Source: Streptacidiphilus carbonis
GTDB taxonomy: Bacteria > Actinomycetota > Actinomycetes > Streptomycetales > Streptomycetaceae
Assembly (NCBI RefSeq): GCF_000787775.1
Contig: NZ_BBPM01000032.1
Coordinates: forward strand, 1 to 64,000
Reading direction: 5' to 3'
Length of the DNA stretch: 64,000 bases
Of the stretch, positions 4,178-7,230 are shown piece after piece (position 1 is the first letter of the stretch; each line of letters opens with the position of its first letter). The position numbers and the translations under genes are program-made. The notes below the pieces were generated by a model. The model was given only the letters and a program-made list of their open reading frames with translations. It was not told where the DNA came from and searched no databases.

Positions 4178-4618
4178 TCAGTCGCGCGTTGCGCGCAGTG
4201 ACGGCTTGAGCTCCAGCAGTCGGGCCAGCAGTCCGTTGACGAAGGCCGGGGACTCGTCGGTGGAGAACTCCTTGGCGATCTCGACCGACTCGTCCAGGAC
4301 GACCGCGTCCGGGACGCCGTCCTCCCAGATCAGCTCGTACGCGCCCAGGCGCAGCACATTGCGGTCCACGACCGGCATCCGGTCCAGCGTCCAGCCCACC
4401 GCGTAGGTCGCGAGCAGTTCGTCGATCCGGGCGGCGTGCTGGGTGTAGCCCTCGACCAGCTCCATCGTGTACTCGCTGACCTGCGGCGTGCCCTCGTCCG
4501 GGGTGCGCGCCCGGCGCACCCAGTCCGCGAGGACGGACTGCGGGGCGACGCCCCGGTGGTCGGCCTCGAAGAGGATCTGGAAGGCGCGCGTGCGGGCCTT
4601 GTTGCGTGCGGTCGACAC
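4178..4618 (-). CDS. nusB: Transcription antitermination factor NusB
   Basis: A 146-residue protein of normal NusB length. The N-terminus VSTARNKARTRAFQILFEAD carries the Arg-rich RNA-binding start of the family. The core contains LDRMPVVDRNVLRLGAYEL and the C-terminus VLDESVEIAKEFSTDESPAFVNGLLARL, the two signature stretches of the all-helical fold. NusB pairs with NusE (S10) on boxA RNA to form the rRNA antitermination complex. The GTG start at 4618 lies 2 bp after the efp stop, so the two are co-transcribed as in other actinomycetes. Confidence 0.95.
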   Translation of the reverse strand: MSTARNKARTRAFQILFEADHRGVAPQSVLADWVRRARTPDEGTPQVSEYTMELVEGYTQHAARIDELLATYAVGWTLDRMPVVDRNVLRLGAYELIWEDGVPDAVVLDESVEIAKEFSTDESPAFVNGLLARLLELKPSLRATRD

Positions 4619-4620
4619 GG

Positions 4621-5187
4621 TTAGGAGTTCACCCGGCCGAGGTAGTCGCCGGTGCGGGTGTCGACCTTGATCTTCTCGCCGGTGGTGATGAAGAGCGGGA
4701 CACCGATCTCGTGGCCGGTCTCCAGGCGGGCCGGCTTGGTGCCGCCGGTGGAGCGGTCGCCCTGGACGCCGGGCTCGGTGTACTCGATGACCAGCTCGAC
4801 CGAGGCAGGCAGTTCGACGTACAGGGGCGCGCCCTGGTACATCGCCACGGTGGCCTCGTTGCCCTCGAGCAGGTAGTGGGCGTTGTCGCCGAGGACGGCC
4901 GGGCTGATCTGGATCTGGTCGTAGGTGTCCATGTCCATGAACACGAAGTCCTCGCCGTCCTTGTACGAGAACTGCATCCCGCGCTTGTCGACGCTGGCCG
5001 TCTCGACCTTCACGCCGGCGTTGAAGGTCTTGTCGACCACCTTGCCGGACAGCACGTGCTTCAGCTTGGTGCGCACGAAGGCCGGGCCCTTGCCGGGCTT
5101 GACGTGCTGGAACTCGACGACGGACCACAGCTGGTCGTTGTCGAGCTTGAGCACCATGCCGTTCTTGAGGTCGTTGGTGGAAGCCAC
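4621..5187 (-). CDS. efp: Translation elongation factor P
   Basis: EF-P of 188 residues, which binds between the P and E sites and relieves stalling at polyproline. The N-terminal KOW-like domain starts [20 protein letters not shown]. The tip loop is KPGKGPAF, with the lysine at residue 33. The PGKGP form of this loop is characteristic of Actinobacteria, where EF-P is reported to work with an unmodified lysine; no epmA, epmB or other modification gene is nearby. The C-terminal OB domain ends in the conserved [12 protein letters not shown]. The GTG at 5187 is preceded by AGGAG; an in-frame ATG at 5223 is less likely. It sits between a PepP homologue and nusB. Confidence 0.96.
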
Positions 5188-5263: not shown

Positions 5264-6328
5264 TCACAGGGCGAGGAGCTCCTTGGTCGTGATGGTGAGC
5301 AGCTCGGGACCGCCGTCCTCGGACGGACGGACCACGAGCGTGTCCTCGATCCGGACCCCGCCCCGGCCCGGGATGCACACCCCGACGCCGACGGTTACCG
5401 GCACACGGTTGTCAAGCTTACCCAACTCCTGAGGTCCCAGATGCGGCTCCTCCCCGATCTCCAGGCCGACACCCGCCCCCACCCCCGCGCCGAGGCTTTC
5501 GCCGGCGACCCGGCCTGCCGCCTCCAGCACCCGCCCGGCCGCCCGGTCCGCCACCTGGTAGCCGCCGCCGACCGCCAGCGACTCGCGGGCGGCGCGCTGG
5601 GCGTCGAAGACCTGCCGGTGCAGCTCGGACTGCCAGTCGGCGGGGCTGAGGCCGACCACGAAGGTACGGGTGGCGGCGGTCCGGTAGCCGCGGTAGCAGG
5701 CGCCCAGGGCGACGGTGAGGAAGTCGCCGTCCTCGACCCTGCGGTCCCCCGAGCTGTGGTCGGCGCGGCCCGAGTGGTCGCCCGCGCCCACCCGGGTCGG
5801 GAAGGCCGCGGAGTCGGCGCCGTGGTCGATCATCCGGCGCTCCAGCTCCATCGCCAGGTGCCGTTCGGTACGGCCGATCAGGATCGACTCCAGCAGCTCG
5901 CCCAGCGCCTGGTCGGCGATCTCCCCGGCGATCCGCAGGCAGGAGATCTCCTCCTCGTCCTTGACGGTGCGCAGCTGCTCCACGGCGCGGCCCAGGTCGC
6001 GCAGGTCCTCCACGGCCGGGGCCGCTGCGGCGACGGCCCGGTGCCGGGCCACGGTGAGGTCGTGCTCCTCCACCCCCAGCGTGCGGCCCCGGCAGCGGGC
6101 GGCCAGCAGCACCGCCGGGTCGGCGCCGGCCGGCACCGGCAGCACGGTGCAGCCGCCGGCCGGGCCGGCGGCCTCGGCCCCGTCCCGGGTCAGCAGCAGC
6201 GCGGCGGCGGTGTCCGTGCCGGTGAGCCAGCGGACATTGGCGGGCCGGGTGACCAGCGCCGCGTCCAGCCCTGCGGCGCTGCAGCGTTCCCGCATGCGGT
6301 CGCGGCGCTCCTCGTGCACTTTCCCCAT
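5264..6328 (-). CDS. M24-family (Xaa-Pro aminopeptidase-like) protein lacking most metal ligands
   Basis: A 354-residue pita-bread-fold protein of the aminopeptidase P/creatinase family, with an N-terminal creatinase-like domain (1-120) and a C-terminal M24 domain (125-350). Active members use two Asp, one His and two Glu to bind two metals. Here the DxG position reads VALGA (Ala207), the GDxTRT position reads TAATRT (Ala218), the HxxG position reads GAGVG (Ala285) and the TxEPG position reads TVGVG (Gly314). Only the last Glu (Glu328 in GGVRIED) remains. The fold signatures around these sites are intact. A catalytically inactive binding protein is therefore more likely than a peptidase. The start ATG at 6328 lacks a clear Shine-Dalgarno but matches the family N-terminus. 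It lies 76 bp upstream of efp on the same strand. Confidence 0.85.
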   Translation of the reverse strand: MGKVHEERRDRMRERCSAAGLDAALVTRPANVRWLTGTDTAAALLLTRDGAEAAGPAGGCTVLPVPAGADPAVLLAARCRGRTLGVEEHDLTVARHRAVAAAAPAVEDLRDLGRAVEQLRTVKDEEEISCLRIAGEIADQALGELLESILIGRTERHLAMELERRMIDHGADSAAFPTRVGAGDHSGRADHSSGDRRVEDGDFLTVALGACYRGYRTAATRTFVVGLSPADWQSELHRQVFDAQRAARESLAVGGGYQVADRAAGRVLEAAGRVAGESLGAGVGAGVGLEIGEEPHLGPQELGKLDNRVPVTVGVGVCIPGRGGVRIEDTLVVRPSEDGGPELLTITTKELLAL

Positions 6329-6392
6329 GTCATGAGCGTAGGCACGGGGGCGCCAGGTCGCTCGGCGGGATCGTCCGAGTGCGGACCGTAGA

Positions 6393-6482
6393 TGGCTGGT
6401 CGCGCAGTTCCCCGCGTCCCTAGGGGTCTGCAACTGGCTCAGTTGCACGTGCCAGGGGCGCGGGGAACTGCGCGACCAGCCA
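6393..6482. repeat. Nested palindromic intergenic repeat, copy 1
   Basis: The outer arms begin TGGCTGGTCGCGCAGTTCCC (6393 onward) and end at 6482 with the complementary sequence. The stem is nearly 30 bp with one G.U position. The inner stem is TGCAACTG-GCT-CAGTTGCA (6429-6447). It lies between the PepP-like gene and the P-loop kinase. Confidence 0.9.
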
Positions 6483-6504
6483 CGCACACGCCGCAGCCGA
6501 AGGA

Positions 6505-7230
6505 CTACCGGTGCACCGCTCCGGCGAGTACCTGCTCCAACGCGGAGACGGTCCCCGGGACGTCCAGTTTGGAGTTGTCGATGATGGGGAGCCCGGAGCC
6601 GTACCACCCGGCCATCCGCCCGTGGATACGGGCGACCTCCTCGTCCTCCAGTCGCCGCACCCCTGCGCGCTGCGCGTTGCGGGACAGCACCACGTCCAGG
6701 CCGGGAAGCAGGACCACCGGGACCAGGTCGGGGCCGACATGCCGCTTCCAGCCGCCCAGACCGATCGCCGGGCGGTCCGGGAAGACGGCGTCGTCGATGA
6801 TGCAGGAGATGCCGTTGGCGAGGTAGTTGCGGGCGGCGAAGCCGCAGGTGCGGCGGGCCAGCCGGTACTGGGCCTCGGACTGGTCGTTCCACCCCGACTG
6901 CGGATTGGCGAACCCCGAGCGGACCCATTCGCGGACGTCGTCCAGGCTGATGTGCGCCGTCGGCGTGGCACGGCTCTCGGCCCACTGCCGGGCCACCGAG
7001 GTCTTGCCGGCCCCAGCCGGGCCGATCAGCAGCACTGCCACCGGGCCCCGCGCGTGCGGGTGGGCCGGCGCCGTGCCCGGCGGCAGGCCGGTCGGCATGA
7101 CGAAGTGTCCGGTGGGTCCGGTGGCCGACTCCGGCACGGCTCGCAGCTGCAGCGTCGCCCGCGGCGGTCCTGGCGTGGGCTCGGGCAGGCTGCCCTGGTA
7201 GTGCCCGTCGCTCACCGCTCCACCGCTCAC
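6505..7230 (-). CDS. P-loop kinase / ATPase (AAA_33-like)
   Basis: A 241-residue P-loop NTPase. An unstructured Pro/Gly-rich segment of about 60 residues precedes the Walker A motif GPAGAGKTSVARQWAE. HISLDDVREWVRSG and CIIDDAVFPD follow, the arrangement seen in small-molecule kinases of the zeta-toxin/gluconokinase-like group (AAA_33). The lid region carries RNAQRAG and RRLEDEEVARIHGRM. The phosphate acceptor is unknown. The GTG at 7230 has a perfect AGGAGG seven bases upstream, so the longer frame from 7296 is not used. Copy 1 of the palindromic repeat follows its 3' end. Confidence 0.75.
   Translation of the reverse strand: MSGGAVSDGHYQGSLPEPTPGPPRATLQLRAVPESATGPTGHFVMPTGLPPGTAPAHPHARGPVAVLLIGPAGAGKTSVARQWAESRATPTAHISLDDVREWVRSGFANPQSGWNDQSEAQYRLARRTCGFAARNYLANGISCIIDDAVFPDRPAIGLGGWKRHVGPDLVPVVLLPGLDVVLSRNAQRAGVRRLEDEEVARIHGRMAGWYGSGLPIIDNSKLDVPGTVSALEQVLAGAVHR

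Follow-up and report, generated by a model that had tools for sequence, protein, structure and literature searches.

Peptidases of the M24B group such as PepQ and aminopeptidase P (1pv9, 3q6d and 5giu) combine a Creatinase_N domain with a pita-bread M24 domain, and M24 proteins that are catalytically dead and kept for binding have been described from eukaryotes. Ebp1 (PA2G4) and Arx1, both of the M24A type, bind the ribosome tunnel exit and belong to a class marked by a MetAP-2-like insert domain and a basic C-terminal extension (PMC7005732), the extension of Ebp1 being Lys-rich; Ebp1 keeps two of the five metal ligands (PMC11266112). The window, by which the whole analysed stretch of 64,000 nucleotides is meant, contains a gene whose product shares the architecture of PepQ and aminopeptidase P over nearly its full length and which lies in the same position beside efp as the efp-linked orthologues of other Actinomycetes. 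In contrast to PepQ and aminopeptidase P, six of the seven catalytic residues are replaced, and peptidase chemistry is not to be expected of this protein. Judged by its sequence, it is a real, ancient and lineage-wide M24B pseudoenzyme, of a kind already known from eukaryotes. It is probably a catalytically dead protein in which the pita-bread fold has been kept and maintained for a non-catalytic role, most plausibly the binding of a protein or of the ribosome. Ebp1 and Arx1 are likewise dead pita-bread proteins; however, the window protein is an M24B protein with Creatinase_N, possesses no insert domain, ends in TITTKELLAL without an extension and received 15.5 bits against 430 from the Ebp1-type profile TIGR00495. 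It falls outside the PA2G4/Ebp1/Arx1 family and has no shown common ancestry with these proteins as a pseudoenzyme. Searches of the open-access literature returned neither a description of such a bacterial M24B variant, with one stem loss spanning most of a family and a conserved substituted ligand set in Streptomyces, nor a paper on the S. coelicolor locus tag SCO1492.

The open reading frame starts with an ATG at 6328 and ends with a stop codon at 5266–5264 on the minus strand (Table 1). The plus-strand frame over 5264–6328 was set aside as a chance open frame. Pfam analysis revealed matches to Peptidase_M24 (PF00557; 132.6 bits, cut-off 23, E = 2.2e-38) and Creatinase_N (52.2 bits, cut-off 22, E = 1.1e-13), which together span nearly the whole protein and place it, above the gathering score, in the M24B fold. 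None of the NCBIfam equivalog cut-offs for PepQ, PepP and YpdF was reached, the best score being 143 bits against the 630 needed. Upstream of the gene lie aroB, aroQ and a P-loop kinase-like gene, and downstream efp followed by nusB. The order aroB-aroQ-M24-efp-nusB could also be found in sister families and the M24-efp pair in much of the class; this order is ancestral and widely kept, in agreement with the conserved place upstream of efp and nusB that the initial annotation had proposed. The P-loop kinase-like gene between aroQ and the M24 gene (6505–7230, minus strand; AAA_33 with a weak Zeta_toxin match) was also matched upstream in L177 and L181, but gave no match in the examined stretches of several intact order members. 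A large inverted repeat, GGCTGGTCGCGCAGTTCCCCGCG ... CGCGGGGAACTGCGCGACCAGCC, occupies 6371–6504 between the kinase-like gene and the M24 gene, with core arms at approximately 6395–6418 and 6458–6482; it resembles a hairpin of the terminator type or of a dispersed repeat.

Table 1. Positions in the window of the M24 gene, its catalytic codons, its constrained segments and the genes that follow it.
Feature	Position	Strand	Basis or remark
M24 gene, product of 354 aa (M24B, prolidase / aminopeptidase P-like), catalytically dead	5264..6328	-	Translation, Pfam, PDB alignments
Codon 190, first His of the PHH motif (catalytic) to Asp	5759..5761	-	PDB and orthologue alignments, tree
Codon 207, metal-ligand Asp to Ala	5708..5710	-	PDB and orthologue alignments
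Codon 218, bridging metal-ligand Asp to Ala	5675..5677	-	PDB and orthologue alignments
Codon 285, metal-ligand His to Ala	5474..5476	-	PDB and orthologue alignments
Codon 292, second catalytic His (HE motif) to Gly	5453..5455	-	PDB and orthologue alignments
Codon 314, metal-ligand Glu to Gly	5387..5389	-	PDB and orthologue alignments
Codon 328, sole retained metal-ligand Glu	5345..5347	-	PDB and orthologue alignments
Helix pair EIADQALGELLESILIGRTERHLAMELERR of codons 136-165, candidate surface for interaction, frozen in the pseudoenzyme clade	5834..5923	-	0.83 vs 7.60 changes/site
Codons 346-354, C-terminal tail ITTKELLAL	5267..5293	-	Almost invariant across the order
3' part of gene, codons 301-328, synonymous constraint in the altered clade only; candidate efp regulatory DNA	5345..5428	-	Amino-acid-corrected scan
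efp, elongation factor P (PGKGPAF loop)	4621..5187	-	~75 bp downstream of the M24 gene
nusB	4178..4624	-	PF01029 match

The catalytic positions were read by alignment to the solved prolidases 1pv9 and 3q6d, which was unambiguous at the motifs. The window segments VALGACYRGYRTAATRT and GVGAGVGLEIGE aligned with the prolidase segments IDLGALYNHYNSDITRT and SLGHGVGLEIHE, respectively, and TVGVGVCIP aligned with TIEPGIYIP, while VRIEDT was kept. Relative to the intact orthologues, the replacements were H190D, D207A, D218A, H285A, H292G and E314G. Among the five metal ligands of an active M24B peptidase (D, D, H, E, E), E328 alone is present next to A207, A218, A285 and G314, and the two catalytic His of the PHH and HE motifs are D190 and G292. 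The four ligand losses and the retained Glu are exactly those that the initial annotation had listed; its list was incomplete, as it lacked the two catalytic His. The M24 profile match and the flanking motifs TRT, GxG and GGVRxED are intact. Identical replaced residues recurred in the close relative S. jeojiense, and related losses were observed at the same columns in 13 of 13 full-length copies of the genus; hence, the losses are not a sequencing artefact. Chance could be excluded as an issue because all seven residues were present in every one of the 63 intact orthologue loci read (33 efp-linked and 30 class-level, some of the 30 sharing genomes with the 33). Since only one ligand is left, metal is presumably absent from the window protein.

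An efp-linked orthologue was found in 14 of 14 Streptacidiphilus genomes and in 120 of 121 genomes sampled from the family. Genome G044, an assembly of approximately 800 contigs, has neither the M24 gene nor efp; gene loss was rejected there in favour of an assembly gap, as efp is missing too. Among 185 distinct efp-linked orthologues, the catalytic columns were intact (HDDHHEE) in 33 and altered in 152. The intact copies comprised all sampled class outgroup families, the sister families within the order and two early Streptomycetaceae genera (g2 and g4), and an independent class-level search from an intact sequence returned best loci that were intact in 30 of 30 cases. In a maximum-likelihood tree from which the catalytic columns had been left out, the altered copies formed a single clade (65 rows, SH-aLRT 100, stem length 0.37), with the intact g2/g4 copies as the sister group. 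Because the altered copies form one clade, the catalytic centre was lost once, in the stem of the core Streptomycetaceae, the ancestor of Streptomyces, Kitasatospora and Streptacidiphilus. The alignment of orthologues, which the initial annotation had recommended for dating the loss, thus moved it to this stem; the ligand loss itself holds, but not as a property of this gene or genus, and a genus-specific loss was rejected by the tree. According to parsimony, the crown ancestor still had H285, while H190, D207, D218 and H292 had already changed. With a single loss in that common ancestor, the enzyme fold has been kept over a very long period, probably for a non-enzymatic task.

Comparison of the window gene with its two closest congeners gave dN/dS values of 0.20 and 0.23 (Fisher p 1e-14 and 1e-13), with changes at 38 of 765 nonsynonymous and 64 of 297 synonymous sites in the first pair; slightly longer extracts gave 0.25. 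Intact order members showed values of 0.11–0.16; the constraint on the window gene is thus weaker than theirs, yet real. No credible frame break was found among the 185 distinct orthologues. Breaks occurred only in G083 and G013, where the neighbouring nusB or efp is broken as well, which points to assembly error. Gene decay was rejected on these two grounds, and the view of the initial annotation that the gene is a maintained pseudoenzyme was upheld: the fold is kept, the catalytic residues are lost and the frame is under purifying selection. In a sister lineage of the same order (g100/g101; L225, L226 and L227 from three genomes), aroB adjoins efp, with M24 and aroQ gone and efp kept; therefore, the protein is not universally needed.

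The distribution of protein constraint was evaluated as parsimony changes per site in the altered clade and in the intact rows, the totals of which were nearly equal (2454 vs 2321). Residues 136–165 showed 0.83 changes per site in altered copies vs 7.60 in intact orthologues, and the C-terminal residues 346–354 showed 0.11 vs 4.78. Higher values in the altered copies could be observed for two segments lining the pocket, residues 41–70 (15.5 vs 6.1) and 261–295 (9.3 vs 4.2). Per-column counts revealed a release from constraint at pocket positions, among which are P and H of the PHH motif as well as conserved residues of the N-domain. Taken at the level of sequence, these counts indicate that constraint shifted from the pocket to residues 136–165 and the C-terminal tail. 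Site permutation gave 0 of 5000 shuffles as extreme. Circular shifting, used as a control, gave no significance (p 0.71), because it destroys the conservation pattern common to both sets and is a poor null. Synonymous sites in codons 136–165 vary normally in Streptomyces-type copies; thus, the freeze acts at the protein level. The helix segment has 80% identity between pseudoenzyme and sister, compared with 58% overall. Some of the helix conservation is thus older than the loss, and the surface may therefore have mattered before catalysis was lost. The simplest reading would be an early non-catalytic surface, either already present or newly arisen, that persisted after catalysis had gone. The role of this surface could also be no more than homodimer stability. 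The binding of X-Pro peptides, which the initial annotation had considered plausible, received no positive support, as it is the pocket that was released from constraint. The window protein and a Streptomyces orthologue were modelled with AlphaFold2, but at pLDDT 50 and 56 the models were too poor to use; hence, what is said here on surface and pocket is derived from the known M24 fold.

The sequences show the following course of events. The ancestral efp-linked enzyme carried the complete H-DD-HH-EE set, and the residues essential for catalysis disappeared once, in the stem named above. The pocket then drifted, towards a C-E-H-D-E-D set in Streptomyces and towards near-emptying in this Streptacidiphilus, while the helix pair and the C-terminal tail stayed or became frozen and the frame remained under purifying selection. 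The fold may now serve as a binding platform by way of the helix-pair/tail surface, as in the M24 pseudoenzymes Ebp1 and Arx1. This protein, found in essentially all core streptomycetes sampled, is very unlikely to be the peptidase that a profile match would suggest. With a placeable single loss, intact sister genera at the same locus, a lineage that deleted the gene and a pocket that decays by degrees from the substituted set to near-emptiness, it offers an unusually clean case of conversion from enzyme to pseudoenzyme. A non-catalytic surface is also predicted for model organisms such as S. venezuelae.

Other explanations were weighed against this reading. The M24 profile match and the intact flanking motifs would agree with a still active peptidase whose ligands come from neighbouring residues; displacement of this sort, named in the initial annotation as a ground for abandoning the claim, was looked for in the alignments, and no substitute Asp, Glu or His was present beside 207, 218, 285 or 314 (V-A-L-G, R-T-A-A-T, G-A-G and V-G-V). 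With both catalytic His gone as well, such activity is extremely improbable. A different picture is presented by the Streptomyces-type copies (this label and Kitasatospora-type rest on tree position for part of the copies), in which the consensus at the replaced columns is C207-E218-H285-D292-E314-D328. Among the 122 distinct copies with Glu or Asp at 314, C207 occurred in 109, E218 in 117, H285 in 121, D292 in 103, E314 in 120 and D328 in 118. The pocket columns read V/A-S-H-R-G-E in Kitasatospora-type copies and range from S-S-H-E-G-E to A-A-A-G-G-E in Streptacidiphilus, and the C-E-H-D-E-D set is gone in both. The window copy is the emptiest of this graded series; it thus stands at the end of a long drift and is no recent loss. 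It is possible, although doubtful, that the Streptomyces-type pocket was rebuilt to bind another metal or a small cationic ligand or to carry out a new reaction; the Streptacidiphilus protein would then be a later derivative that lost the rebuilt site. The combination C-E-H-x-E-D in 105 of the 122 copies would fit this, as would the fact that the substituted residues are all plausible metal ligands and the presumed cost of four buried carboxylates without a cation. However, the columns are less conserved than in the intact enzymes, where they are invariant; R207 characterizes one supported subclade of altered copies and single copies carry R/Q/A mixtures. Nearly all copies have, moreover, lost the two catalytic His, and the proposal is inapplicable to the window protein with its single ligand. 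That the stem event itself rebuilt the centre into a new conserved Cys-Glu-His-Asp-Glu-Asp site in Streptomyces, coupled to the frozen outer surface, seems unlikely; if true, the window genus would show the remnant after the site was lost again, with the surface function alone left.

The 3' end of the gene may hold regulatory DNA of efp, as suggested by synonymous constraint and the position of a WhiA peak. Synonymous sites, corrected for amino acid, were unusually conserved in codons 301–311 of Streptomyces-type copies and in codons 319–328 of Streptacidiphilus copies (p = 0.001 each), no such signal was found in codons 301–328 of intact order members, and dS was 0 in codons 326–354 against both close congeners. 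ChIP-seq in S. venezuelae located a WhiA peak at 191 bp upstream of efp (PMC3781837), a site that would fall within the M24 gene if the spacing there resembles that of the window. A WhiA-type GACAC motif over codons 328–330 was set aside, since any Asp(GAC)-Thr pair creates GACAC, and no candidate emerged when the region was scanned in a simple way for sigma-70 and terminator signals. These signals could mean that the coding sequence is a passenger, the protein mattering little and the locus being held for efp promoter or regulatory sites. This is quite improbable, as it leaves unexplained the frozen segment 136–165, the dN/dS of 0.20–0.25 over the whole frame and the approximately 150 distinct altered copies with open frames; regulatory DNA can complement but not replace an explanation at the protein level, because the frozen helix lies approximately 650 bp from efp. 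The protein might instead stay beside efp by binding EF-P, the ribosome or polyproline nascent chains. The ancestral gene order and the binding of the dead M24 proteins Ebp1 and Arx1 to the ribosomal tunnel exit (PMC7005732) speak for such a partner, and a role in translation is possible by analogy with these two. The neighbourhood, however, is equally conserved with the intact enzyme. Co-evolution with EF-P was looked for, and no position of EF-P carried a residue that is constant throughout the altered clade and differs from that of intact order members. A specific EF-P role received no positive support, and the sister lineage kept efp without the M24 gene. Such an EF-P, ribosome or polyproline-chain partner can be entertained only tentatively; gene order makes some translation-related partner, in line with the role in translation that the initial annotation had considered plausible, the first guess, albeit a speculative one.

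For the preferred reading, a dead protein kept for binding, the loss of efp-linked catalysis may have been made tolerable by intact M24B paralogues. One such paralogue in the same genome (L026, contig C116), which is not efp-linked, has 32% identity in the aligned part and a complete HDDHHEE set, and copies related to it occurred in both intact and altered lineages, in 54 of the 61 family genomes. In another M24-family protein of the window's genome (L007; G000, contig C80) and in L038 of a congener, the second Asp ligand is replaced by Cys and the spacing ahead of RIEEE is unusual.
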